64,000 bases of DNA, taken from Cohnella algarum (GTDB lineage Bacteria > Bacillota > Bacilli > Paenibacillales > Paenibacillaceae). The notes under the pieces were generated by a model. That model did no database searches and had not been told where the DNA came from. It saw only the letters and a list, made by a program, of their open reading frames with translations. The DNA is taken from assembly GCF_016937515.1 (NCBI RefSeq), contig NZ_JAFHKM010000002.1, positions 3,839,001 through 3,903,000 of the forward strand, read 5' to 3'. The position numbers were made by a program, and so were the translations under genes. Of this stretch, positions 1,531 to 13,452 are shown one piece after another; within the stretch, counting starts at the first letter, position 1, and each line of letters begins with the position of its first letter.

Positions 1531-1656
1531 ATGGAAAACCGCCTCGGCTCGGAATCCGATTCGCCGGCCGCGGCTTAGTACAGATGCCGTTGCGCATGGA
1601 CACGTTACACATACAATGTCATGTGCATACCGTTGCCCGAGTCGGGGGTGAGAGGG

Positions 1657-2493
1657 TTGGCTGGAAAAAGGGGCAACATCCGTCCGAAACGAAGGCCGGT
1701 CAGGAAAACCGGAGGCTACGCTTCTCGCGGGAAGCGGCCCGCAAGCGAAGAGAGGGCGGCGGGGAAGCCCGCCGTTTCGGTCATCATTCCCGTCATGAAC
1801 GAAAAGCGGAGGCTGGCTCGCGTCATTCGGGAAGCGTTTCGCATCCGTCCCCGAACCGAAGTGATCGCGGTCGTCAACGGTTCGACCGACGGTTCGCTGG
1901 ACATCGCCCGCAACAGCGGGGCGAGGGTCATCGTTTTCGACCGGCCGTTAGGCCACGATGTCGGGCGGTCGGTAGGAGCGATGGAGGCGCAGGGCCGGGT
2001 TCTTCTTTTTATCGACGCCGACATGGTGATTCCCGCCGCGCAGCTCCGGACGTTCGTCGAGGCGGTGGAACGGGGAGTGGATGTGGCGTTGAACGACTAT
2101 TCGGGCCCGACGGACCGAGCGACCGTGCACAGCGTCGTTTTGGCGAAGCACGCGCTCAACGGGCTGCTCGGGCGCAAGGATTTGCGCGGCGCCTCGATGA
2201 CGGCCGTGCCTCACGCGATCAGCCGCAAGGCGCTGGAAACGGTCGGCGCCGCCGCGCTCGCGGTGCCGCCGCTCGCCCATGCGATGGCCGTTCACGGGAA
2301 GCTTTCGGTCGAGCGCGTCAAACACGTCAACGTGGGCCGGCTGAACCCGCTGCGCATTCGAAGGGAACGCACGAACTCCTTGGAGCCGCTCATCGTCGGC
2401 GATCATCTCGAAGCGATCGATTGGCTTATGCGGAACACCGACGGCCGGGGAGGGTGCGGGGAAGACGACCGCAAGCGATGGATGGTGAGATAA
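1657..2493 (+). CDS. GT-A fold glycosyltransferase (family 2-like) with basic N-terminus
   Basis: 278 residues from TTG 1657, chosen because GGGGGTGA sits about 5 bp upstream; the frame is open further up (ATG 1621) but without a ribosome site. The first ~35 residues are rich in Arg, Lys and Gly. The nucleotide-sugar-binding fold follows: [17 protein letters not shown] and the metal-binding F-I-D-A-D-M (DxD). It would transfer a sugar to an unknown acceptor. It is the first gene of the locus, and its stop is one base before the start of the next gene, a diverged paralogue. Donor and acceptor cannot be deduced. Confidence 0.8.
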
Positions 2494-2494
2494 C

Positions 2495-3691
2495 GTGAAG
2501 GCAAGAGTCCGCAAGTCATTGGCAGCATCGTCCGGAAAACCGAAAACCGGCCGCGCGGCCGGCAAACCCTTCGCGAAGACGTCGTCCCGCTCCGGGCTTG
2601 CCGGAAAAAGGGGCGCCCGGGGAGCCCGCAAACGGCCCGGCGGCCTTCGCGCGGTGAAGCCCCGGGACGGCAGCCGGCGAACGCATGCGGCCGGAAGCGT
2701 CCGGCGGCGAAAGCCGCCGAAGCGGTCGGCGCTTCTCGCCGGGCTTTGGAAGGAAGGCCGGGGCGACGGAGCGGATTGGCGAGCCGGGCATCCCGAGGCC
2801 GCCGACGTTGCCATGAACGAAGCCGTTCGAAAAACGTGGATGCAAAAGCTGCAAGAACATTCGAACCTGCCGAAACTGGACGGCAAGGAGGTATGGGAAA
2901 GAGCGAAGGCGTATGCCGAAGGCTTTGCGGCCGGAGCGGGAATGGCCCCCTCGCGGGTTCCGCTGCCGTTGTCGCGGGGCGCGGGCGCGGTCGTTTACGC
3001 GAACGCGAACCCGGATGCATTACGTTCGGTGCTCACGGAGCTGGCCCGGCTGCCGCTGGCCGAAATCGTCGTCGTGCTCGGGAGTCCTTCGGAACGACTG
3101 CTCGAGGCGGCCCGAAGCGGCGGTACCGCCACGATCGCCTGCTTGCCGGAAGACGTTCATCCCGACATTGGACGGGCACTGGGCGCCAAACTAACCGATG
3201 CGGATCTGCTTCTGATCGCCGACGGCGAACAGAAGGCCGAAGCGTCGGAGCTGGCCCGGTTGCTGTGGGCGGTCGACGGGCGGTTGGACGTCGCGTTGAA
3301 CGACCGTTCCGCTTTTTTGGGCCTGTTTCATAAACGAAGCGACGTGGAACGGTTTCACGAATTTTTGAATGTCACGTTAAACAGACCGGATCTTCAAATG
3401 AACACGATGGCCGCGCTGCCGCTCGCCATGACCCGAAAAGCGTTGGAAACGCTTGGAGCCGCGGAGCTGTCCGTGCCCGTCAAAGCGCATGCCAAAGCGC
3501 TGCAGCGGGGCCTTGCCGTCGGCACGGCCGCCGCGGTCGATTGGCGTCCGCCGGCCATGCCAAACCGGGATCGCATAGCCCGAGGGGACCACCTCGAGGC
3601 TTGGAAGATGGCGTTTGCGGAAGCGGGTTTTCGGCTTCGTTTTCCCGACAAGGCGCGCAATCGAAAGGCTGCGAAAGGAGCGGTCGGCTAA
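2495..3691 (+). CDS. Degenerate glycosyltransferase paralogue with Arg/Lys-rich N-terminus
   Basis: 398 residues from GTG 2495. Residues 1-80 are low-complexity and strongly basic. Residues 140-149 carry a short aromatic-x-x-Gly repeat (Y-A-E-G-F-A-A-G). The rest aligns by eye with the preceding gene: V-L-G-S-P-S-E-R for N-G-S-T-D-G-S, D-V-A-L-N-D in both, and R-K-A-L-E-T-L-G-A-A-E-L-S-V-P against [15 protein letters not shown]. The DxD position reads I-A-D-G, so metal-dependent catalysis may be lost. Its stop overlaps the next ATG by one base (TAATG). It could be a partner subunit or an inactive paralogue. Confidence 0.65.
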   Translation: MKARVRKSLAASSGKPKTGRAAGKPFAKTSSRSGLAGKRGARGARKRPGGLRAVKPRDGSRRTHAAGSVRRRKPPKRSALLAGLWKEGRGDGADWRAGHPEAADVAMNEAVRKTWMQKLQEHSNLPKLDGKEVWERAKAYAEGFAAGAGMAPSRVPLPLSRGAGAVVYANANPDALRSVLTELARLPLAEIVVVLGSPSERLLEAARSGGTATIACLPEDVHPDIGRALGAKLTDADLLLIADGEQKAEASELARLLWAVDGRLDVALNDRSAFLGLFHKRSDVERFHEFLNVTLNRPDLQMNTMAALPLAMTRKALETLGAAELSVPVKAHAKALQRGLAVGTAAAVDWRPPAMPNRDRIARGDHLEAWKMAFAEAGFRLRFPDKARNRKAAKGAVG

Positions 3692-4422
3692 TGCGCGCAT
3701 CGATTATTATCCCGACATTCGACAGGCTCGATTTGCTGCAGGCTTGCGTCGCTTCCATTCGGGAGCATACGGAAAGCGAGTACGAGATCGTCGTCGTCGA
3801 CAACGGATCCCGCGACGGGACGATCGACTGGTGCGCCGCCGAGAAGCTGGCGTTCGTCTCACTGCCCGCAAACGCCGGTTTTCCGACCGCATGCAACAAA
3901 GGGCTGCGTCTTGCGACGGGAGATACGCTCGTTCTGCTTAACAACGATACGATCGTGACGGCCCGCTGGCTGGACAATTTGCTGGCCGCGCTCTACAGCT
4001 CGCCGAGTGTCGGAATGGTCGGCCCGGTCGCCAATTATTGCAGCGGGAAACAGCAGGTCAAGTATTCTTACGATAGCTTTGAGGAATTTCAGCGAATCGC
4101 GGCGGAAGTCAACCGCTCGAATCCGGAAAAATGGACAAAAACCGACCGGCTCGTCGGTTTTTGCCTGGCGTTTCGCCGAGAGGTAATGGAGCGGATCGGA
4201 CTGCTCGACGAACGGTTCGCTCCGGGGCATTTCGAAGACGACGATTATTGTTTGCGGGCCAGGCTGGAGAACTTCGAGCTGCTTATCTGCCGCGACTGCC
4301 TCATCCATCACGAAGGAAGCGCCAGCTTTAAAATGGACGCCGCGGCCCAGCGACGGCTGATCGAACGAAATTATCGGCTCTTTCTGGAAAAATGGAAGAT
4401 CGATCCGCATGTCTTCATTTAA
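3691..4422 (+). CDS. Family 2 glycosyltransferase (rhamnosyltransferase-like)
   Basis: 243 residues from ATG 3691, which overlaps the previous stop; GAAAGGAG lies about 10 bp upstream. This is a complete GT-A domain: S-I-I-I-P-T-F-D-R at the start, V-V-D-N-G-S-R-D-G-T, then L-L-N-N-D-T (DxD equivalent), and a late H-F-E-D-D-D-Y catalytic or acceptor motif followed by I-H-H-E-G-S. The layout resembles WcaA/RfbN-type rhamnosyltransferases that extend surface polysaccharides. It lacks the basic extension seen in its paralogue at 6235, with which it shares the T-D-R-L-V-G-F-C-L and F-E-D-D-D-Y blocks. Confidence 0.88.
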   Translation: MRASIIIPTFDRLDLLQACVASIREHTESEYEIVVVDNGSRDGTIDWCAAEKLAFVSLPANAGFPTACNKGLRLATGDTLVLLNNDTIVTARWLDNLLAALYSSPSVGMVGPVANYCSGKQQVKYSYDSFEEFQRIAAEVNRSNPEKWTKTDRLVGFCLAFRREVMERIGLLDERFAPGHFEDDDYCLRARLENFELLICRDCLIHHEGSASFKMDAAAQRRLIERNYRLFLEKWKIDPHVFI

Positions 4423-4454
4423 ATCGTCAGCTATGACGCGAGGAGGGCATTTCG

Positions 4455-5180
4455 TTGAAAGCAGTCATTCTGGCTGGCGGCACGGGTACAAGGTTAAAGC
4501 CGCTGACCTATTGGAACAACAAACACCTGCTTCCCGTAGGGACGTATCCGATGATCTGCCATGGAGTGGCTAAACTCCGCCAAGCCGGAATCCGGGACAT
4601 CGTGCTCGTAACCGGCAGGGATGCGCTCGGCAATTTTGCGGATGTGCTCGGAAGCGGGAGAGATTGGGGAGTCTCGCTCATATACCGGGTTCAGGAGGAA
4701 GCGGGCGGGATCGCGCAGGCGCTCGAACTGGCGGAGCCCGTCATGAAGCCTGACGAGAAGTTCGCCGTTCTGCTCGGCGACAACCTTTTCGAGGAATCGC
4801 TGGCGCCTTACGCGGAGGCGTTCGAGAAACAGAGGGACGGGGCGATGGTGCTTCTCAAAAAAGTCGAAGACCCCAGGCGGTACGGCGTTCCGCTGCTGGA
4901 TCGCGCTTCGAGCCGGATCGTGCATATCGACGAAAAGCCGGCCGTTCCGCAATCGTCCTATTGCGTCACCGGTCTGTATTTTTATTCGAGCGAAGTGTTC
5001 GAAATCATACGCCGCGTTCATCCGTCGCATCGGGGCGAACTGGAAATTACCGACGTGAACAACGTATTTGCCGGGGAACGAAAATTGCATTACCGCATTT
5101 TGGACGGCTGGTGGACGGATGCGGGAACGTTCGAGTCGTTGGAGGAAGCCGGGCGGAGATTGAAAGGAACGCTCCCTTGA
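4455..5180 (+). CDS. Sugar-1-phosphate nucleotidylyltransferase (RfbA-like)
   Basis: 241 residues from TTG 4455, with AGGAGGG 7 bp upstream. It opens with K-A-V-I-L-A-G-G-T-G-T-R-L, the nucleotide-binding signature of glucose-1-phosphate thymidylyl- and uridylyltransferases, followed by the substrate motifs L-L-G-D-N-L-F and the conserved K-P of I-D-E-K-P. The family makes NDP-sugars from sugar-1-phosphate and NTP, here plausibly supplying the surrounding glycosyltransferases. At 241 residues it is nearer the short RfbA type than GalU. The nucleotide and the sugar used cannot be told from sequence alone. Its TGA overlaps the TTG of the next gene. Confidence 0.88.
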   Translation: MKAVILAGGTGTRLKPLTYWNNKHLLPVGTYPMICHGVAKLRQAGIRDIVLVTGRDALGNFADVLGSGRDWGVSLIYRVQEEAGGIAQALELAEPVMKPDEKFAVLLGDNLFEESLAPYAEAFEKQRDGAMVLLKKVEDPRRYGVPLLDRASSRIVHIDEKPAVPQSSYCVTGLYFYSSEVFEIIRRVHPSHRGELEITDVNNVFAGERKLHYRILDGWWTDAGTFESLEEAGRRLKGTLP

Positions 5181-6192
5181 GCGCCCGTTTGGCGGTCCGG
5201 GCGGGAGCGGGCAGGCTTGCGTCCCGCGCCTCCGGACCGAGAAAAGGAAAAAGATCGAGACGCGCCCGCAAAATAAGGCCGATCCGGACCGGCCGCCGCA
5301 AGCTGCACGGAACCGCGACGCCGCGTCCGGGACGGCCGGAGCGGAACGGAAGCAATCGGGTCGACGTTTTGCCGGATGCTTACGACGAAGGCGTCTACGA
5401 CGGCGGCGAGGCGCTGCTGGAAGCGAGGCTGCCTGCGGATCGCGTTTACCCGGATTTGACGCTGGACGACGTGCTGGCCGCCGGGATCGCGGCGCTTAAG
5501 CCGAGCGGCATTCCGTTGCTCGGTCCGGCGGCGGTCTACGACGAGCTGGAAAGGGCGCTTGACGAAGGCATTCCTTATTCGCTGGTCCGTCTGGGGACGG
5601 GGAATTGCTGACGATGGCGCAAGGCACGGTGCTTTCGGCGACCGAAGTTTCCCGGCAAGGCCCGTTTCTGGCCTATGCGGGAGTAAACGTGCCGGATATA
5701 AAGGCCAGGGACGTACTTACCGCCGCCGTCCAAGCGGCTTCCGTCATCGGAATCCCCCTTTCGCGAAAACCGACGTTCCAGCCGCTTTTATTCAAGGTAT
5801 GGAGGGCGCTCGGCATCGATTGGGAACGCATCCGGCTGACGACCTCGACGATCAATTACGCACTGGAAGAAGGAGACTATTGGCCGAAGCTGATGGCCGG
5901 CCGCCGCGTCCTGGTCGTCGGCAACGCGGCGGCGCCGCTGGCGCGGGTGCTCGGCAATCGAGGAGTCCGCATCGCCGCCGCGGTCGGCCCTGTTAGAGGG
6001 ATAAGCGACTGGGAACGGGTCGCCGAAGAGGCGTCGGGACATCCGTTCGATCTGGCGCTCGTGTCGGCCGGAATCGCGGCCGTTCCGATTTGCGTGCGAC
6101 TGGTCGAACGAACCGGCAAAGCGGCCGTCGATTTCGGCCATTTGGCCGATCGGATGGCCGGGTTGGAATATCAGCCGAAAATCCGGCGGTAA
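5177..6192 (+). CDS. GT-D fold glycosyltransferase with basic N-terminus (frameshifted in this sequence)
   Basis: The frame starting at TTG 5177 (AAGGAA upstream, overlapping the previous stop) runs to a stop at 5609-5611. Homologous sequence continues in the frame one base back up to 6192. Adding one G to the run at 5593-5596 joins them and restores L-G-D-G-E, the motif of GT-D/DUF1792 glycosyltransferases; adding it to 5599-5602 gives L-G-T-G-E. The repaired protein is about 338 residues. Residues 1-60 are Arg/Lys-rich and residues 69-77 hold Y-D-E-G-V-Y-D-G. No canonical slippery heptamer is seen, so a lost base (read error or mutation) is more likely than programmed frameshifting. Confidence 0.75.
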
Positions 6193-6234
6193 AGCGAAAG
6201 GCTCGCCATCAATTTCAGAAAGAGGTGCGTCGGC

Positions 6235-7611
6235 ATGGGCTTGGCAAAAAGGCCGGCTCGCAGCCGGCGTTCGCGTCGCCCGCCCCGTTCCGACCCCGCC
6301 CGGAGAAAAAGCGGGGGAAAAGCGCCGAGCAGACGAACGCCGGCGAGGCCGGGAGAATGGTACGATCGCGGTTATCAAGAAGGGTACCGGGAGGGCGTCC
6401 AAGTCGGACTGCAAAGATTCCATGAGGGGTTCGAAGGAACCAGCATCATTATTCCGACTTACAACCAGCTGGCCCTGCTAAAGGAATGCATTCGCAGCAT
6501 TATGGACAATACGAATGTACCTTACGAGATTATCGTCGTGGACAATGCCTCTGCCGACGGAACGGCCGCCTATCTTCGGAGTCTGGGCGGCCAGGTCCGC
6601 TTCCGGGCGCTGGACGCGAACCGCGGCTTCGCCGGCGCGATCAACGTCGGCCTGATGATGGCCAAAGGCAGCACCCTTTTGCTGCTGAACAACGATACGC
6701 TCGTCACCGAGCGGTGGCTGGACAACATGCTGGCCTGCCTGAACAGCGACGAACGCATCGGCATGGTGGGACCGGTTTCCAATTGCGTGAGCGGCGACCA
6801 GCAAATAACGGTTCCGTACGATCACATCGGCGACATGCCTCGGTTCGCCGCCGCCTTCAACCGTTCCGACGCTTCTCGCTGGCGCCGCACCGACCGGCTT
6901 GTCGGCTTCTGCCTTTTGTTCCGCCGCGAGCTGTTCGAGCAGATCGGGTACTTCGACGAGGGCTTCGAATTGGGAAATTTCGAGGACGACGATTACGGCA
7001 TTCGGGTTCGGCTGCTTGGCCGCAATCTCGTCGTAGCGGAGGATACGTTCATCCACCATTTCGGCAGCGTCAGCCTTCGCGCGATCGGCGAGCAATTCGC
7101 CCGCATCAACGATCGGAATCACCTCTATTTTAATGAAAAATGGCAGCACCCTTACGAGTGGATCCATCGGGTTTTGAAGCTGTCTCCGTCCGTGTCCGAG
7201 CCGCTTGCGGATATGTCGCTGCTGTATCCCGAACGGATTGCCGTTCAAGGCATCGGCGCCGCCGTATATTGGGTGGAGGACGGAATGCGGCACTCCGTGG
7301 AGGGGGAGCTGTCGCTTCCCGTGACCCGGATTTCGCAAATCGATTTGAAGCGCTGGCCTATCGGCGGCAAAATAAGCGGAGAGGAAGCGTCCGCGCGCTG
7401 GTTCGGAGAAGCGACAGGCGTAGTCATGCTGCCGGACGGGACGCTTTTTTACCGGGAAGCCGATCGCTTGCGGCGAATCGTCAGTTTGGCCGCCATGCAG
7501 GCGTGGCACCTTCATCTGAAAAAAATCGACGTCATGCAGCCGGAGGAGGCGGCCCGCTGGGCGGAGGGATTGCCGATCGTCGCGCCTCCCGTTTTGCGGC
7601 AGCGGCTTTGA
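6235..7611 (+). CDS. Family 2 glycosyltransferase with basic/GxxxG N-terminus and C-terminal beta-type domain
   Basis: 458 residues from ATG 6235, with GAGGTG upstream. There are three parts. Residues 1-40 are Arg-rich and disordered-looking. Residues 43-67 form aromatic-x-x-Gly tetrads (Y-D-R-G, Y-Q-E-G, Y-R-E-G, V-Q-V-G). Residues ~68-310 are a GT-A domain with S-I-I-I-P-T-Y-N, V-V-D-N-A-S-A-D-G-T, L-L-N-N-D-T and F-E-D-D-D-Y. From ~338 onward a separate region begins A-V-Y-W-V-E-D-G-M-R, resembling the end of the GT4 protein at 10914. It is a paralogue of the gene at 3691. It probably adds sugars to a surface polymer; the substrate is unknown. Confidence 0.86.
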   Translation: MGLAKRPARSRRSRRPPRSDPARRKSGGKAPSRRTPARPGEWYDRGYQEGYREGVQVGLQRFHEGFEGTSIIIPTYNQLALLKECIRSIMDNTNVPYEIIVVDNASADGTAAYLRSLGGQVRFRALDANRGFAGAINVGLMMAKGSTLLLLNNDTLVTERWLDNMLACLNSDERIGMVGPVSNCVSGDQQITVPYDHIGDMPRFAAAFNRSDASRWRRTDRLVGFCLLFRRELFEQIGYFDEGFELGNFEDDDYGIRVRLLGRNLVVAEDTFIHHFGSVSLRAIGEQFARINDRNHLYFNEKWQHPYEWIHRVLKLSPSVSEPLADMSLLYPERIAVQGIGAAVYWVEDGMRHSVEGELSLPVTRISQIDLKRWPIGGKISGEEASARWFGEATGVVMLPDGTLFYREADRLRRIVSLAAMQAWHLHLKKIDVMQPEEAARWAEGLPIVAPPVLRQRL

Positions 7612-7964
7612 AACGCGCGAAGATACCTCCGGCGCATCATAGCCGCGGCTGCCGGCCATATGCGGGCGCCCTGCCGTCGGCTTGAGCGCCGGGCCGCCGT
7701 TCGGCCGAAAACCGATGCGTTTTCGCCGCCGGCGGCTTTTGTGTCGGGAACGGCTGCGGGCACCGGAGGGCGTTGCTCGGGTAGTGGAACCCGGTTGGAT
7801 CGTTTCTTGACGGCGTGAGAGTGGACAAGCCATATGCTCGGGCGAACGATTTTCGGACGGGCGAAGCCGCGTCTTCTTCGGCGCAACATGTGGCAAGGAA
7901 AGCGAAAAGGCATATGCTGTAAAGACTCGGCAGTTTGCCAGCAAAGGACGGTGGCTAAGGCCGC
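7612..7964. other. 353-bp gap inside the glycosylation locus
   Basis: No convincing coding region is seen. The gap separates the glycosyltransferase at 6235 from the small-protein genes and probably holds their promoter. CATATGCT occurs at about 7831 and about 7911, fitting the CATANNNT minus-10 pattern of mother-cell sigma factors, but no matching minus-35 element was found at a proper distance. Confidence 0.4.
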
Positions 7965-8252
7965 ATGCAGGACTTAATGACGGAAATCGTCGTCCATTTA
8001 TCCCAGTCCCACCAGCAAATGGCGAGGATGCTCGACGCCAAGCGGCACGTGACGGTTCGAATGGCGCATCTGGTGCAGGCGCTGCCGGATGAAATGCCGC
8101 AATTCGAAGGCCTGGACGGTCTGGCGGACAGTTCGTCCAAGGTCACCAAAAGCGTCATTTCTTACGTGAATTCCATTGCGGACTTGCAGGAGGCGGTGGC
8201 GGACAGCCTGACTCAAATCGTAAAAGCGACCAGTTCCCCGGATGAGGAATAA
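7965..8252 (+). CDS. Small helical protein of the glycosylation locus
   Basis: 95 residues from ATG 7965. I do not recognise a characterised family. The sequence is largely alpha-helical, has no signal peptide or membrane segment, and contains S-Q-S-H-Q-Q-M-A-R-M-L-D-A-K. A comparable helix (L-A-x-I-A-R-S-Q-type followed by x-A-R-I-L-E-S) recurs at the start of the two following genes, so the three look like diverged paralogues. Placement between glycosyltransferase genes suggests a structural or acceptor role in the spore surface, but that is inference. A short hairpin with four T residues follows at 8256-8277. Confidence 0.65.
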   Translation: MQDLMTEIVVHLSQSHQQMARMLDAKRHVTVRMAHLVQALPDEMPQFEGLDGLADSSSKVTKSVISYVNSIADLQEAVADSLTQIVKATSSPDEE

Positions 8253-8255
8253 AAC

Positions 8256-8277
8256 GTCCGCCGCATAGCGGACTTTT
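8256..8277 (+). terminator. Weak hairpin terminator or attenuator
   Basis: GTCCGC/GCGGAC forms a six-base-pair stem with a six-base loop, followed by TTTT. It lies between two related small-protein genes and may lower read-through into the second. Confidence 0.5.
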
Positions 8278-8313
8278 GCGCGGAGAGCGGCGACAGAAGG
8301 GAGGGGCGAAAAA

Positions 8314-8610
8314 ATGACTCGCGAAGACGCGTATAGAGTAACTCTCGACGCGCTGGCCAAGCTGCATTGGAACATGGCGATGATGTTGGAAGCGAAGGCG
8401 TCCGAGGCGGAGAAGGTGCGCAACTGGGTGCTTAACCACATGACTCCCGATAAATATGAAGAACAGACGGAACAGTTGTCCACGTCCCTTCAATTCCACA
8501 AGCAAAATGTCGAATTGATCGACGGATTGACCAAGCTTTGCAACGGCCTGAACCGCAATATGAAAGCCATCCTCGAACCGGAGGAGGACGACGACGGGGC
8601 GGAGGGCTGA
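8314..8610 (+). CDS. Small helical protein, paralogue 2
   Basis: 98 residues from ATG 8314, with GAAGGGAGGGG upstream. No known family was recognised. It is predicted mainly helical and soluble, with an acidic tail (E-P-E-E-D-D-D). The N-terminus M-T-R-E-D-A-Y-R-V-T-L-D-A-L-A-K matches the pattern of the gene at 8660 (M-N-R-E-Q-A-W-E-V-K-L-S-L-L-A-S), and its M-M-L-E-A-K-A corresponds to M-L-D-A-K in the gene at 7965. The shared pattern and tandem position argue for duplication. Expression together with the spore-surface locus is likely but not shown. Confidence 0.65.
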   Translation: MTREDAYRVTLDALAKLHWNMAMMLEAKASEAEKVRNWVLNHMTPDKYEEQTEQLSTSLQFHKQNVELIDGLTKLCNGLNRNMKAILEPEEDDDGAEG

Positions 8611-8659
8611 TGGGCGGCGGAGGGTTAATGGGCGGATTCGACTTCGGAGACGGGGAAGG

Positions 8660-8962
8660 ATGAACCGGGAACAGGCATGGGAGGTAAAGCTGTCTTTGCT
8701 CGCATCCATCGCCCGCAGCCAGGAGGCGCTCGCCCGGATATTGGAAAGCGTGGCCGACGTCACGGAAGGCAGCTCCGGTTCCGCCGCGGTACTGAGAGAG
8801 CATGTCCGGGTCATTTCCAATATGCAAAGAGCGTTGCTCGGGACGGCGGCCGGCGGCACCTGGGCGCCTCCCGTGCGGGGCGAAGCCGCCGCTCCTTGGC
8901 TGAACGAGAGGCTGGTCCCGCATAACCTCCGCAGGCGAAATACGGGAGGGATGCCGCAATGA
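8660..8962 (+). CDS. Small helical protein, paralogue 3
   Basis: 100 residues from ATG 8660, with GGGGAAGG directly upstream. The first ~35 residues are the conserved helix shared with the two preceding genes (A-W-E-V-K-L-S-L-L-A-S-I-A-R-S-Q-E-A-L). The C-terminal third is Pro/Arg-rich rather than acidic. Its stop overlaps the ATG of the next gene (ATGA at 8959), indicating translational coupling to the Arg-rich protein that follows. No enzymatic motif is visible. Function unknown; a coat structural or adaptor protein is one possibility. Confidence 0.62.
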   Translation: MNREQAWEVKLSLLASIARSQEALARILESVADVTEGSSGSAAVLREHVRVISNMQRALLGTAAGGTWAPPVRGEAAAPWLNERLVPHNLRRRNTGGMPQ

Positions 8963-9224
8963 AGCCGCGCTTCAGGCGGGGGTCCCGTCCCGCGGGCAAA
9001 ACGAGGACGGGCGCCCGGGGAAAAAAGCGGACGAACAGCCCGTCCCCGGCAAAGAAGAGGGGGCGGCCGGAAGTCGGACGCGCAGGCGCAGGGGGCGAAC
9101 GGCCGGAAACGTCAGACCGCCGCTTCTTCACGGGAGCGGTTCGGCCTACCGCGAGGGCTACCACGCCGGCTTTGCCCAAGGCTTCGAAGACGGGCATCAA
9201 TTGGCCTACGAGCAGCAACTATGA
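8959..9224 (+). CDS. Small Arg-rich protein with aromatic-x-x-Gly repeat (frameshifted in this sequence)
   Basis: From ATG 8959 the frame encodes a basic segment (M-K-P-R-F-R-R-G-S-R) but then loses the family pattern. The frame one base back encodes T-R-R-R-R-G-R and a clean tetrad repeat Y-R-E-G, Y-H-A-G, F-A-Q-G, F-E-D-G, ending at TGA 9222-9224. One extra G in the run at 9059-9063 joins the two into an 88-residue protein with the same design as the next gene. The 3' end overlaps that gene's ATG. There is no enzymatic domain: this is essentially the targeting or assembly module on its own. Exactly where the base was lost is inferred. Confidence 0.6.
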
Positions 9225-9529
9225 ATGGGGGGAGCCGACTGAAACGCAAAGGACATTCGCGGACGGCGGCCAAGCGAAGACGCGCCGGACTCGGAAGAAA
9301 GGGCGCCGCGAGGCGGAGCGGACGGAAGGCGGGCAACCCCGGCCGGAAACGAAGAAAAACAGGACCCGCTCGCCGGCGCGGCCGGGTTTTGCGCAAACGA
9401 TCTGCCGCCCCGAGGAAGGCTGCCGCGGGAGGACAGACGTATCGGCAAGGATTTGACGAAGCGTACGAACAAGGGTTTCAAGCCGGGTTTGCACAGGGGC
9501 TTGAGGAAGGCGGCAAGCTCGAATTTTAA
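9221..9529 (+). CDS. Small Arg/Lys-rich protein with aromatic-x-x-Gly repeat
   Basis: 102 residues from ATG 9221, which overlaps the preceding TGA. Residues 1-70 are dominated by Arg, Lys, Gly and Ala. Residues 74-98 are tetrads Y-R-Q-G, F-D-E-A, Y-E-Q-G, F-Q-A-G, F-A-Q-G, L-E-E-G, predicting an amphipathic helix with a glycine stripe. No catalytic domain is present. The ribosome site is weak, consistent with coupling to the upstream gene. Similar modules start the glycosyltransferases at 5177 and 6235 and the CgeB-like protein at 9704. The basic part could bind acidic polymers and the helix could self-associate; both are inference. A strong terminator follows. Confidence 0.7.
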   Translation: MNGGSRLKRKGHSRTAAKRRRAGLGRKGAARRSGRKAGNPGRKRRKTGPARRRGRVLRKRSAAPRKAAAGGQTYRQGFDEAYEQGFQAGFAQGLEEGGKLEF

Positions 9530-9549
9530 ACCGCATACGGGTTTTCGGC

Positions 9550-9589
9550 AGTCGTCTTCCCGAGTAGGGAGGGCGGCTTTTTCTTTTTT
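9550..9589 (+). terminator. Intrinsic terminator after the Arg-rich small proteins
   Basis: A GC-rich stem (around GTCGTCTTCCC and GGGAGGGCGGC, with some G-T pairs) with a five-base loop is followed by TTTTTCTTTTTT. It ends the small-protein transcription unit, so the CgeB-like gene needs its own promoter in 9590-9690. Confidence 0.8.
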
Positions 9590-9703
9590 CGATTTACGCA
9601 CTTGCGGACGGGTAACTATCCATGTCCGACTCAGAGAGGGCGCATATATTGATGTTGGGTGATCGTGGACGACTAGGCGGTAGAACGCGAAGGAGGAATG
9701 GAT

Positions 9704-10855
9704 TTGGCAGTCATCCGCAATCGCGCGAAGATCGGCGGGAAAGTCCGGACCGGGCAAAAATCGGGAACGGCATCCGCGTATGCCGCCGGACAAAGGTCGG
9801 GTCTGGCGCTCGGGTTCGCCCATGGTCGCTGGCAGGGACTGTGCGAGGCCGTCATCCAAAAATCGGCCGGCGCGCTTCCGCGCCGGGCGGCGACCGTACT
9901 GTTCGTAACGTCGGGCAAAGGCTTCCCGTACAGCCCTCTGGACGAAGCCGTGCAGCTTTCGCTTCTTGGGTTGGCGGAGCGGGTCATCGTAGCTTCCCCC
10001 AAGGACGATGTCGCCGGACTCGCCGCGGCGGAACGCCCTGATTTGGTGCTGGTGCTGGAAGGCATGGAATTTCCGCCGGAGCAGGTAGCCTCCATACGCT
10101 TGAACGGCATCCGGACCGCGATCTGGTTCACCGACGATCCTTATTACACGGACATTACGAGCGGACTCGCTCCTTGCTACGACTACGTATTCACGCTGGA
10201 AAACAATTGCGTGCCTTATTACCAGCAGTTGGGCTGTCCCCGGGTTCATTACCTTCCGCTCGGAGTGTTTCCCGAGTATTTCCGACCGCGCAATCCGCAG
10301 CTGTCGCTTCGCGGCGACGTCTGCTTTATCGGCAGCGCGTACTGGAATCGGGTCGACTTTTTTTCAAGGCTGCTTCCTTATATCGAGCATCGGTCTTTTC
10401 ATTTGTCGGGAATCTGGTGGGACCGCCTTCCCGAATACAAGCGGTGGAAGGATCGGATTCAATTGGACCGCTGGATGACCCCGCTGGAAACGGCGGAGCA
10501 CTACAACGCCTTCAGCATCGTGATCAACGTGCACAGATCGCATGACGACGAAACGTTCAATCGCAACGGCGCCAAAATCGTGGCCCAGTCGCCGAACCCC
10601 CGCGTATTCGAAATTTCCGCCTGCGGCACGCTGCAAATCGTCGATCAACGAAGCGATTTGCCCTTGTATTACAAGCCGGGAGAAGAAATCGTCACTTACG
10701 ATACGCCCGAGGATCTGGCGGCCAAAGTCGAGTATTACCTGAATCACGAGGAAGAACGGCAACTGTTAGCCTTGAGGGCTTTGCGCCGCACGATGAGGGA
10801 CCACACGTACGCGAACCGGCTGCATCAATTGCTGGAAATCGCTTTGGCTCCGTAA
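9704..10855 (+). CDS. CgeB-like glycosyltransferase (spore maturation type)
   Basis: 383 residues from TTG 9704, where AGGAGG lies 7 bp upstream; ATG 9698 is too close to that site. Residues 1-25 are basic and residues 26-45 form Gly tetrads (Y-A-A-G, Q-R-S-G, L-A-L-G, F-A-H-G). The body matches CgeB-type proteins: an N-terminal Rossmann half with A-I-W-F-T-D-D-P-Y-Y, V-F-T-L-E-N-N-C and Y-L-P-L-G, then a C-terminal GT-B half with F-I-G-S-A-Y, V-F-E-I-S-A-C-G-T-L-Q and Y-Y-x-x-G-E-E-I-V. CgeB in B. subtilis is a sporulation gene affecting the outer spore layer, the best single clue to this locus's role. Confidence 0.85.
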   Translation: MAVIRNRAKIGGKVRTGQKSGTASAYAAGQRSGLALGFAHGRWQGLCEAVIQKSAGALPRRAATVLFVTSGKGFPYSPLDEAVQLSLLGLAERVIVASPKDDVAGLAAAERPDLVLVLEGMEFPPEQVASIRLNGIRTAIWFTDDPYYTDITSGLAPCYDYVFTLENNCVPYYQQLGCPRVHYLPLGVFPEYFRPRNPQLSLRGDVCFIGSAYWNRVDFFSRLLPYIEHRSFHLSGIWWDRLPEYKRWKDRIQLDRWMTPLETAEHYNAFSIVINVHRSHDDETFNRNGAKIVAQSPNPRVFEISACGTLQIVDQRSDLPLYYKPGEEIVTYDTPEDLAAKVEYYLNHEEERQLLALRALRRTMRDHTYANRLHQLLEIALAP

Positions 10856-10913
10856 CGCAGAAACCGTAATCGGATAAAAGCGGAACAGCCGCATGGAGAA
10901 GGAGGAGGGCGGC

Positions 10914-12410
10914 ATGCAAGCAGTCACCGTTCGGCCGAAGCTGGTCATTTTTTCCCATTTGTGCAACGACGTTCACGCCACGGGCGCGGAAAAGCTTTTG
11001 CTCGCCTTTTTGAAGGAAATGCGGCATTTTTTCGAATGCTTGCTTGTCGTTCCGCAAGAAGGGGCCATCGCCAGAGCCGCGTTGCGCGAAGGGATCGAGT
11101 CGGCAACGCTCCCTATTCCGCTATGTCCGGCAGTGCAAGACGGTTCGCCGCAGCTCGACCGGGAATTGGAGTCGCTTCGGACCGATCCGGTTTGGGAGCG
11201 GATTATCGATCTTTTGCAGCGGGAGCAGCCTTCTTATGTATGGGTGAACACGTGCGCGCATCCCCTGCCCGCAATCGCGGCGAAGGCGCTCGGAATTCCC
11301 GTTGTGTGGGCGCTGATGGAAACGATCGCCGAAGACGGTCCGCGCAGGGCTCAGGCCGCGGCGCTGATCAACACTTACAGCGATCTGATCGTCGGCATTT
11401 CGGAGACGGTGCTGGCTCCGTTCAGCCGCAAGACGCTGCTCTCGAAGACGGTCGTGCTGCCGCCTTTCGTAAGCTTGAGGGAGGCGGAGCCGGAAAGCTG
11501 GTTCTCCCATCGATTTAACGTGCGCAGGAGCAACGGGTGGGGGGAATACCATCGGGTCGCGGGCTTCGTGGCGGCCGGCCTGCACCCGTCCAAAGGGCTG
11601 AAAGAGTTCGTCGAAGCGATGATCCCGCTGGCGCTGAGAGATCCGATGATCCGAATGCTGATCGTCGGCAACGGCGCCGACGAGGAATTCGTCCACTCCT
11701 GCATCGAGCTCGCGCGCGGGGCGGGGCTCGGCAACCGGATCGGGTGGGTGCGGTACGCGGAAAAAATCGAGACGATCTATCCGGCGATGGACGTGTTGGT
11801 CGTGCCCAGTCTCGTCAAGGAAGGCTTCGGCATGACCGCGGCCGAAGGCATGCTGTTCGGCAAGCCGGTCGTCGCGTTCGCTTCCGGAGGCCTGACCGAG
11901 CTGATGCAGGCTACCGGCAACGGCGAATTTTTGGTCGCCCCGGGAGACGTTCCCGGGCTCGCCGCCGCGGCAGGCGGTTTGCTGGCCAGCGACGAGTGGC
12001 GCTTTACGGTCGGCGGGCGGAATATGCAGGCGGTGCAGCAAGCGTATGGACTTGAAGCGTTCCAAGCGAAGCTGGCCAAGCTCATCCAGAAGCTTCCCGA
12101 TCCGGTCGAACAGCTCGCCGGTCTCGTTCGGGGCATGGGCCCGACCGTTTATTGGCTCGAAAACGGCCGAAAACGGCCGTTTCCTTCGCCGGAGTCGCTA
12201 TTGGCCGCGGGGTTTCGGTTCGAGGACGTGCGTTATATTTTGGAAGAGAAGCTCGTCTTGATTCCGCCCGGCTTGCCGATGGAGGAACCGGAGACGGACG
12301 AAGCTCCCCCTCGAAGAAGACGCCGGCGCAAACGCCGAAGACGGATGCGGGCCAAACGAAGCGCGGTCAAAACGAGGAAACGCCGCGGCCGCAACCGTTC
12401 GCGCGGGTAA
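10914..12410 (+). CDS. GT4-family glycosyltransferase with C-terminal VYW domain and Arg-rich tail
   Basis: 498 residues from ATG 10914 (AAGGAGGAG 7 bp upstream; the in-frame ATG 10893 precedes that site). This is a two-domain GT-B retaining glycosyltransferase: N-terminal L-V-I-F-S-H-L-C-N-D-V-H, mid G-L-H-P-S-K-G-L, and C-terminal V-P-S-L-V-K-E-G-F-G-M-T-A-A-E-G-M with the E-x7-E-type donor site. Residues ~408-460 form a segment starting T-V-Y-W-L-E-N-G-R-K-R, similar to the end of the protein at 6235. Residues ~463-498 are nearly all Arg and Lys, so here the basic element is at the C-terminus. It likely builds surface glycan; the substrate is unknown. Confidence 0.87.
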   Translation: MQAVTVRPKLVIFSHLCNDVHATGAEKLLLAFLKEMRHFFECLLVVPQEGAIARAALREGIESATLPIPLCPAVQDGSPQLDRELESLRTDPVWERIIDLLQREQPSYVWVNTCAHPLPAIAAKALGIPVVWALMETIAEDGPRRAQAAALINTYSDLIVGISETVLAPFSRKTLLSKTVVLPPFVSLREAEPESWFSHRFNVRRSNGWGEYHRVAGFVAAGLHPSKGLKEFVEAMIPLALRDPMIRMLIVGNGADEEFVHSCIELARGAGLGNRIGWVRYAEKIETIYPAMDVLVVPSLVKEGFGMTAAEGMLFGKPVVAFASGGLTELMQATGNGEFLVAPGDVPGLAAAAGGLLASDEWRFTVGGRNMQAVQQAYGLEAFQAKLAKLIQKLPDPVEQLAGLVRGMGPTVYWLENGRKRPFPSPESLLAAGFRFEDVRYILEEKLVLIPPGLPMEEPETDEAPPRRRRRRKRRRRMRAKRSAVKTRKRRGRNRSRG

Positions 12411-12459
12411 GTTCCGTTTCGCACGAAGCAGCAGTCTACTTTCGGCTCGGGGGGATACG

Positions 12460-13452
12460 ATGTTCGCGGGGCAGCGTATTTTGATCACCGGAGGAACCGG
12501 TTCCTGGGGACGGGAACTCGCGCGGCAGTTGCTCGATCGGTCTCCGGAGGAAATCATCGTTTATTCGCGCAACGAGTCCGGCCAGGTGGCGATGGATCGG
12601 GAGCTCCGCGACTCGCGGGTTTCGTACCGCATCGGCGACGTGCGCGATCGCAAGGCGCTTACCCAAGCGTGCAAAGGGGTCGATCTGATTTTTCACCTGG
12701 CCGCCCTGAAGCATGTGCCGGTATGCGAGAATCATCCGTACGAAGCGCTCAAAACGAATGTGCTCGGCACGCAAAACGTCATCGAGGCCGCGTTGGAGAA
12801 CGGCGTGAAAAAGGTCGTGAACGTTTCGTCGGACAAAGCGGCCAGCCCGTCCGGTTTTTACGGCATGACGAAAGCGATCGGCGAAAAACTGATCGTCTAT
12901 GCCAACCTGCTCGATGGCAACACCAAATTTATCTCCGTGCGCGGGGGCAATGTGCTCGGAACGGCCGGAAGCGTCTTGAGCTTGTTCATGAACCAAATCG
13001 CGAAAGGGGAGCCGATCGGCATTACGCATCCGGCCATGACCCGGTTTTTTCTGACGCTTGCGGATACGGTCCGGTTTTTGATCGGGGCGGCGTCCGAAGG
13101 CGAAGGCGGGGAAATATACGTCATGAAGGCGCCCGCATGCCGCATCGCCGATTTGGCGGAAGTGTTGATGGAAGAGGCCGGAAAGCGGGTTGATGTCGTG
13201 GAAACGGGGGTCCGGCCGGGCGAGAAGCTCCACGAAACGCTATTGACGGAGCAAGAATCCGCGACTGCGATCGCGTACGACGATCGTTATTTGATTCTTT
13301 TGCCGACGATCGACATCCCCGGCCTCAAACCGCGTTATTCGGGCTTTGCCGGCATCGGGAGCGGAGGCATCCGTTCCGACCGGCCGACGATCGGCAAGGC
13401 GGACATTCGCCGCTTGCTGGAACGCGGCGGGCTTCTTTCGCGGCCCGGCTAG
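12460..13452 (+). CDS. NDP-sugar 4,6-dehydratase, CapD/PseB type (extended SDR)
   Basis: 330 residues from ATG 12460, with a GGGGGGA ribosome site. It is an extended short-chain dehydrogenase: the NAD(P) motif T-G-G-T-G-S-W-G at residues 10-17, G-D-V-R-D, and the catalytic S-S-D-K-A with Y134-x3-K138. Y-S-R-N-E near residue 35 is typical of UDP-GlcNAc inverting 4,6-dehydratases and polysaccharide CapD proteins. Such enzymes start synthesis of deoxy-amino sugars from UDP-GlcNAc. As last gene of the locus it would supply a modified sugar donor for the glycosyltransferases upstream. Stereochemistry and exact substrate are not certain. Confidence 0.88.
   Translation: MFAGQRILITGGTGSWGRELARQLLDRSPEEIIVYSRNESGQVAMDRELRDSRVSYRIGDVRDRKALTQACKGVDLIFHLAALKHVPVCENHPYEALKTNVLGTQNVIEAALENGVKKVVNVSSDKAASPSGFYGMTKAIGEKLIVYANLLDGNTKFISVRGGNVLGTAGSVLSLFMNQIAKGEPIGITHPAMTRFFLTLADTVRFLIGAASEGEGGEIYVMKAPACRIADLAEVLMEEAGKRVDVVETGVRPGEKLHETLLTEQESATAIAYDDRYLILLPTIDIPGLKPRYSGFAGIGSGGIRSDRPTIGKADIRRLLERGGLLSRPG

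Follow-up and report, generated by a model that had tools for sequence, protein, structure and literature searches.

Several glycosyltransferases of unrelated folds encoded side by side in Cohnella algarum carry a common short element, a helix with a glycine at every fourth residue and aromatic residues three positions ahead of the glycines, and small proteins that consist of this helix and a basic arm, without an enzyme domain (module-only proteins), are encoded among them. The genes belong to a glycosylation cluster at 1621–13452 of a 64,000-nucleotide stretch of contig NZ_JAFHKM010000002.1 (positions 3,839,001 to 3,903,000; the whole stretch, annotated with Pfam and NCBIfam scans, is called the window below). 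On balance we favour the reading, which draws on sequence patterns and on analogy with known GxxxG proteins, that the helix is a docking element by which glycosyltransferases would be gathered on a polybasic adaptor during sporulation.

A tetrad helix in the window and at a second locus

A six-frame translation of the 64 kb contains chains of four (Y/F/W/L/V/I/M)xxG tetrads at three sites only, 6361–6408, 9147–9194 and 9464–9511. All three are inside this locus, one in the family 2 glycosyltransferase encoded at 6235 (GT2d) and two in small proteins (Table 1). The preliminary description of this DNA had assigned a basic stretch followed by such tetrads to six proteins, at 2495, 5177, 6235, 8959, 9221 and 9704, and this assignment stands in part. 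GT2d and both small proteins have the helix, as does the CgeB-type enzyme, in which a five-glycine run (YAAG-QRSG-LALG-FAHG-RWQG, 9779–9838) includes some tetrads with non-aromatic starts. The GT-D enzyme at 5177 has about two clear tetrads (YDEGVYDG). The protein at 2495 (GT2b) is a marginal member, with the single pair YAEGFAAG and with none of its 36 relatives passing the three-glycine test given below.

A profile trained on the six stretches named in that description (A1) ranked its training stretches 1–6 in the organism's own genome. The next, untrained match (E 0.003) was a module-only protein adjoining further CgeB genes with the helix (tagged genes). This second locus (L091, 3245–5858), about 304 kb away, comprises two tagged CgeB genes and a module-only gene. 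A homologue search with residues 22–70 of the 6235 protein returned only that protein itself among 7 candidates.

The helix is restricted to certain enzyme classes

Relatives were assembled as 39 neighbourhoods together with the second locus of the own genome, then 20 outlying loci, six more, and 80 named loci from Cohnella, Paenibacillus, Thermobacillus and unclassified Paenibacillaceae, which represent 80 of 218 relatives; the two sets overlap, as 27 of the 39 neighbourhoods recur in the 80, and cannot count as independent. When 80 relatives were searched with GT2d, 63 genomes had a match at or below 1e-40. The helix was scored as at least three glycines at a spacing of four with at least two aromatic residues three positions before them, in open reading frames (ORFs) that scored 120 bits or more in BLAST and had at least 30 residues of N-terminal sequence. 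By this test, in the 80 named loci, it is N-terminal of GT2d in 77 of 80 relatives, where shuffles of the same N-terminal regions give an expectation of 0.14; the corresponding counts are 96 of 104 for CgeB-type enzymes (expectation 0.12), 44 of 62 for GT-D (0.08) and 4 of 9 for GT-B (0.01). Among 330 neighbours of seven other classes in the same loci, the same test found no helix (GT2a 0/98, GT2b 0/36, GT2c 0/55, RmlA 0/75, GT4 0/31, dehydratase 0/18 and FabH 0/17).

The sequence of the helix is particular to each enzyme class: it reads F/YxxGYREGVQSG in GT2d, GYxEGYxEGLYxGGE in GT-D, and GRxxGxxxGWxHGxWxGxCEA or GWxxGWRxGACQG in the CgeB paralogues. The version of the module-only proteins is FNQAYNEGYNAGFAKGFEDGHQLAYEQ. 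In an alignment of the window GT2d with 62 of 70 reference sequences (A4), the four glycines of the module (residues 46, 50, 54 and 58 of the 6235 protein) are invariant in 63 of 63 proteins and Tyr 51 is kept in 58, whereas the two positions between glycine and aromatic residue are mostly variable (1.6–3.2 bits; the catalytic domain averages 1.07). Invariant glycines with variable positions between them fit a helix that packs by one face, and not a sequence-specific linear signal.

A module-only protein accompanies the tagged enzymes

A module-only ORF (at most 320 residues, with at least four glycines and at least three aromatic residues) is present in 76 of the 80 named loci, with 82 such ORFs in all; a second, separate pattern finds one in 74 of 80. 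The gene order GT2d-h7965-h8314-h8660-module-only, in which the three middle genes encode small conserved proteins, is kept in 63 of the 80.

When a profile of module-only proteins (A2) was run over 80 whole genomes at E 0.01, it gave 73 matches in 55 genomes. Two of these are inside GT2d proteins and were left out; of the other 71, 69 are no more than 5 kb and 70 no more than 10 kb away from a GT2d- or CgeB-matching place, with distances measured to part of those places, and the last is at a contig end. The module of the preliminary description might have turned up at random among unrelated loci; across the 80 genomes it did not, and all but one of the 71 matches have a CgeB or GT2 gene like those of this cluster no further than 10 kb away. 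A2 was built from 27 of 46 peptides, all from the window and the first-fetched loci, and the genome-wide count is partly circular there. The profile was thus partly trained on such loci, yet the genome-wide search was free to match elsewhere and did not. In 19 of the 20 outlying loci, none of which is in A2, matching glycosylation genes lie beside the module.

The partner also follows the enzymes from genome to genome. In the 80 genomes, whose relatedness makes a Fisher test on these counts overstate their independence, A2 has a match in 53 of the 59 with a CgeB or GT2d match, compared with 2 of the 21 without. Two of the six exceptions have a module-only protein that the profile missed, and in each of the two it adjoins one or more tagged CgeB genes. 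The remaining four come from a single family; they lack a module-only protein, and none of the five CgeB ORFs read in them has the helix. Together, these counts and exceptions indicate that tag and partner mostly come and go together.

By family, A2 matches 44 of 49 genomes of the own family and, in other families of the order, 11 of 31. The module-only profile matched 16 of 200 genomes in a sample of the class, all of the own family, and 8 of 299 in a sample of the phylum, four of the own family and four others that were weak. Two of these outside matches were read, and we take one to be FliH beside FliG and the other to be an exported protein. This exported-looking protein, in another class of the phylum (L145, 1291–2106), has long YxxG-type repeats, with no glycosyltransferase locus in the short stretch read around it.

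The helix looks like an addition to the enzymes

CgeB-type enzymes carry the helix in 20 of 20 own-family loci read and in none of 9 readable places outside the family, and GT-D enzymes carry it in 11 of 11 cluster copies read, in none of 8 readable own-family paralogues elsewhere and in none of 9 outside the family. The places read were 20 own-family and 10 outside CgeB genes, 11 cluster GT-D genes, 9 own-family GT-D paralogues and 9 outside GT-D genes; one CgeB gene (L265) and one paralogue (L298) without a readable frame were uncounted, as was the interrupted GT-D gene of the window (L292), and weaker own-family CgeB matches (for example, G295 and G541) lie outside the count. Since outside and paralogous copies have no helix, the helix appears to be an added tag, and one peculiar to this system. 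One genome (locus L136) has two fused CgeB domains, each preceded by its own helix (module-CgeB-module-CgeB). A GT-D gene outside the family (L289) has the last tetrad only, in a genome without a module-only match, and is a possible sister case. The earlier proposal of one module shared by unrelated enzyme folds and enzyme-free partners is strongly supported by the counts in relatives and by the outside homologues.

Helix and basic stretch are partly separable

A basic stretch, defined as a 30-residue window with at least 35% Arg+Lys, lies ahead of the helix in 79 of 79 module-only proteins, 61 of 62 GT-D, 58 of 71 GT2d and 2 of 2 GT-B proteins, and in 22 of the 61 CgeB proteins with enough sequence. 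Another 9 GT2d, 43 CgeB and 7 GT-B proteins were too short ahead of the helix and are uncounted; ORFs were taken from stop to stop, and sequence ahead of the true start may enter the Arg/Lys counts. Basic stretches occur without the helix as well, in GT4 C-termini (28/28), GT2a N-termini (26/55) and GT2b N-termini (17/36). The two features are therefore partly separable: the combination that the preliminary description had put forward holds for GT-D, GT2d and module-only proteins; in GT4 and in part of GT2a and GT2b the basic stretch stands alone, and most of the counted CgeB proteins have no strong basic stretch ahead of the helix.

Relation to known systems

Yae1 and Lto1 (PF09811, Yae1_N) resemble the proteins described here in being soluble, with a glycine at every fourth residue and a motif that joins partners. 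Their deca-GX3 motifs mediate formation of the Yae1-Lto1 complex, which has an adaptor role, and mutations of the middle or C-terminal glycines weaken the interaction (PMC4523923). Yae1-Lto1 has about ten GX3 units and serves eukaryotic Fe-S protein assembly, whereas the helices here mostly have three to six units. The PF09811 cut-off of 27.5 bits is not reached by the 9221 protein (21.3 bits) or the 6235 protein (11.5 bits). Among 28 homologues of one module-only protein, the named ones are mostly labelled hypothetical or uncharacterized, two bear a flagellar (FliH) name and one is called general stress protein; PF09811 is precomputed on two of the 28 (P0009 and P0014).

FliH acts in the flagellum and has a part that binds the ATPase, whereas the helix here tags glycosyltransferases, and the NCBIfam FliH models score 13–18 bits on the window proteins against cut-offs of 180–293. 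The likeness between FliH/YscL and the helix is one of pattern, with glycine at every fourth residue and Tyr or Phe favoured at x1; in the GxxxG repeats of FliH these two residues make up more than 45% of x1 (PMC2674601). The preliminary description had known of no account of its combination as a shared tag. The chemistry of the helix is not new, since FliH has GxxxG helices of this kind. Its use as a shared tag on glycosyltransferases does not appear among the matches listed, judged by their titles and the beginnings of their abstracts, and the literature searched, mostly non-subscription, has nothing that joins CgeB, spore, glycosyltransferase and Paenibacillus.

Two glycosylation systems are also comparable. 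Bacillus subtilis CgeB and CgeA likewise pair a CgeB-type catalytic domain, in a sporulation-type glycosylation locus, with a small partner suggested as a hub; the helix is absent from the readable CgeB enzymes outside the family, among which B. subtilis CgeB is not included. CgT, the dGT1 enzyme of Streptococcus parasanguinis, has extra helices for protein–protein interaction on a glycosyltransferase (PMC5063993), which form a three-helix domain on one enzyme, whereas a portable single helix recurs here across several folds. With the helix chemistry already known, what appears to be new is its use as a portable tag, served by a dedicated partner, on glycosyltransferases of several folds.

Proposed mechanism

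We propose that the tetrads form a soluble GxxxG docking helix, in which the glycines at every fourth position would leave a flat stripe flanked by aromatic residues, so that two helices could pack against each other. Through it, the tagged GT2d, the CgeB paralogues, GT-D and some GT-B enzymes would bind the module-only proteins, and possibly each other. The polybasic arm of the module-only proteins may anchor the assembly to an anionic surface, in all likelihood that of the developing spore, and the polybasic arms of GT4 and of part of the other enzymes might attach to such a surface in the same way. The module-only protein would then be an adaptor that joins the glycosyltransferases of one late-sporulation pathway in one complex. 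By analogy with Yae1-Lto1 and FliH, pairing of the enzymes with the small polybasic protein is the most likely use of the helix, and the scaffold role that the preliminary description gave to the enzyme-free proteins seems the best inference from the sequences. A wider version is conceivable and we advance it tentatively, as somewhat less likely than not: a docking code for spore-surface glycosylation across the Paenibacillales, in which an operon-encoded adaptor, bearing a polybasic arm and the glycine-aromatic helix, would recruit at least four glycosyltransferase types of unrelated folds, by matching helix versions, into one forespore complex.

The link to sporulation comes from the CgeB-type enzymes and from an upstream element, conserved ahead of the first GT2 gene, which is found in 26 of 41 neighbourhoods, the window included (at most 7 substitutions in 27 bases). 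Most copies contain CATACAATG, which we take to be close to sigma-K and sigma-E −10 sequences, and the element is a candidate mother-cell promoter region or operator. As a finder of a regulon the element was set aside, being present in a single copy in the own genome.

How spore-surface glycosyltransferases are gathered appears to be open even in B. subtilis (PMC10502511). Comparison of the relatives singles out one particular helix and one particular small partner, and the question narrows to single residues. If the proposal is right, enzyme assemblies could be built with the helix as a compact, soluble tag some 20 residues long, and a function would be gained for a family whose members mostly go by hypothetical protein and here and there by flagellar assembly protein.

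Several observations weigh against docking on a common adaptor at the spore. The module-only profile detects the modules of the enzymes only weakly, and none at 1e-3, which means that the residues outside the glycine and aromatic stripe differ by protein class; such differences fit class-specific pairing and independent origins alike. The distance from helix to catalytic domain is nearly fixed in CgeB and GT2d, as might be expected of an intramolecular part. GT2a, GT2b, GT2c and GT4 of the same locus are without the helix, and in three genomes (L137, L138 and L141) an untagged CgeB gene lies beside a short module-only gene. The spore context, finally, is drawn from the CgeB-type enzymes and the upstream element only.

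Alternative explanations

The helix and basic stretch could instead be a spore-sorting signal, read by a coat morphogenetic protein, which would carry each tagged protein to the forespore without any need for mutual contact. CgeB is among nine glycosyltransferases potentially involved in the crust glycans of B. subtilis (PMC10502511), and basic stretch and helix occur jointly in the module-only (79/79), GT-D (61/62) and GT2d (58/71) proteins. Yet the helix is missing from some enzymes of the locus, all of which would need to get to the spore if that is where glycosylation happens; GT4 and part of GT2a have a basic tail alone, and no common receptor has been identified. We regard sorting as unlikely, though not far-fetched. 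A structural cap, which would pack on its own catalytic domain or homodimerise and leave the module-only protein functionally unrelated, would explain the near-fixed spacing in CgeB and GT2d and the single helix copy kept for each CgeB domain in the L136 fusion, and there is a precedent in S. parasanguinis CgT, which needs its helical domain for oligomerisation and activity (PMC5063993). However, homologues of the same folds exist without the helix, the folds that bear it have no relation to each other, and module-only proteins are found together with tagged enzymes, which leaves the cap with a slim chance.

The module-only protein might itself be the substrate, with the helix bringing the enzymes to an acceptor that they glycosylate. 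Its gene stands in the same row as those of the enzymes, and for CgeA of B. subtilis a role as target or hub of glycosylation has been suggested (cited in PMC10502511). The count of Ser and Thr in up to 56 residues upstream of the helix runs from 17 down to 1 (median 9, n = 79), however, so an O-glycosylated arm is no constant feature; we give the acceptor role little credence as a full explanation, and it would in any case be compatible with docking, to which it merely adds a role. Least credible of all is that short GxxxG helices, which arise readily, resemble each other here through convergence or low complexity. The same pattern does occur in a FliH-like protein and in an unrelated exported protein outside the order, and 29 residues are too few for sequence comparison to part homology from periodicity. 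But the shuffles predict at most 0.14 cases where 77, 96 and 44 were observed, 69 of 71 genome-wide matches lie within 5 kb of the enzymes, and even a convergent pattern would be one kept by selection. Docking on the module-only protein thus stays our preferred reading.

Organisation of the cluster

The cluster contains, besides the genes already described, those for GT2c, an RmlA-like nucleotidyltransferase and a polysaccharide-type dehydratase; the remaining members are GT2a, the 2495 protein, GT-D, GT2d, three proteins of about 100 residues, the two small Arg/Lys-rich module-only proteins, the CgeB-type enzyme and GT4 (Table 1).

Table 1. Features of the glycosylation cluster, in window coordinates
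Feature	Position	Strand	Details
Conserved upstream element, core (whole element about 1573–1650)	1586–1618	+	Upstream of first GT2 gene
GT2a, GT2 family enzyme without helix	1621–2493	+	PF00535, E 1.6e-19
2495 protein (GT2b)	2495–3691	+	Arg-rich N-terminus; weak helix YAEGFAAG at 2912–2935, from sequence
GT-D enzyme	5177–6192	+	Basic stretch, then helix YDEGVYDG at 5381–5404; start as in the preliminary description; frame interrupted near 5.6 kb
GT2d, GT2 enzyme	6235–7611	+	Arg-rich N-terminus; helix YDRGYQEGYREGVQVG at 6361–6408; PF00535, E 1.8e-27
h7965, small conserved protein, first of trio	7965–8252	+	In 67/80 relative loci; no Pfam or NCBIfam family above cut-off
h8314, small conserved protein	8314–8610	+	In 68/80 loci; no family above cut-off
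h8660, small conserved protein	8660–8962	+	In 66/80 loci; no family above cut-off
Module-only protein 1	8959–9221	+	Polybasic arm and helix YREGYHAGFAQGFEDG at 9147–9194; frame interrupted between start and helix, open in relatives
Module-only protein 2	9221–9529	+	Intact, 102 residues; helix YEQGFQAGFAQGLEEG at 9464–9511, from sequence
CgeB-type GT-B enzyme	9698–10855	+	Helix YAAGQRSGLALGFAHGRWQG at 9779–9838; PF13524 and PF12996
GT4 polybasic C-terminal tail, no helix (gene 10893–12410)	12306–12407	+	From sequence; Arg/Lys-rich in 28/28 relatives with a C-terminal extension of at least 30 residues

The 2495 protein, placed between GT2a and GT2c, matches no family above cut-off in Pfam or NCBIfam, and 'GT-A-like' is the label that the preliminary description gave it; a weak Pfam match to Mur_ligase_C was dropped as below cut-off, as were DIL and Reb1 for the trio h7965, h8314 and h8660. 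The true start of GT2a is perhaps the TTG at 1657. Both families found on the 9698 protein are above their cut-offs (PF13524 at 115.2 bits, PF12996 at 63.4 bits), and we take their combination as the mark of a CgeB-type glycosyltransferase. The PDB holds no sequence relative detectable with the module profile or the CgeB protein, and matches of the h8314 profile there were at chance level (E 0.08–0.6). The trio could be structural or acceptor proteins.

In GT-D, PF22882 (208.4 bits, E 1e-61) and NF040628 (187.9 bits) both exceed their cut-offs on 5605–6189. The preliminary description had treated 5177 and 8959 as proteins; in the window neither is a single open frame, and relatives have intact copies of both. 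The GT-D of a relative aligns to the window in two frames that join near 5.6 kb, and the module-only gene at 8959 has its start in one frame and its module, at 9147, in another. The interruptions at 5177–6192 and 8959–9221 may be assembly errors or real decay.

At the three loci with an untagged CgeB gene (L137, L138 and L141), the CgeB and module-only pair is near a long gene, which in L137 is a U32 peptidase-family gene. By eye, the C-terminal parts of GT2d (7200–7611) and of GT4 (12100–12300) have a VYW(V/L)E-x-G-x-(R/K) region in common, perhaps a small shared domain.

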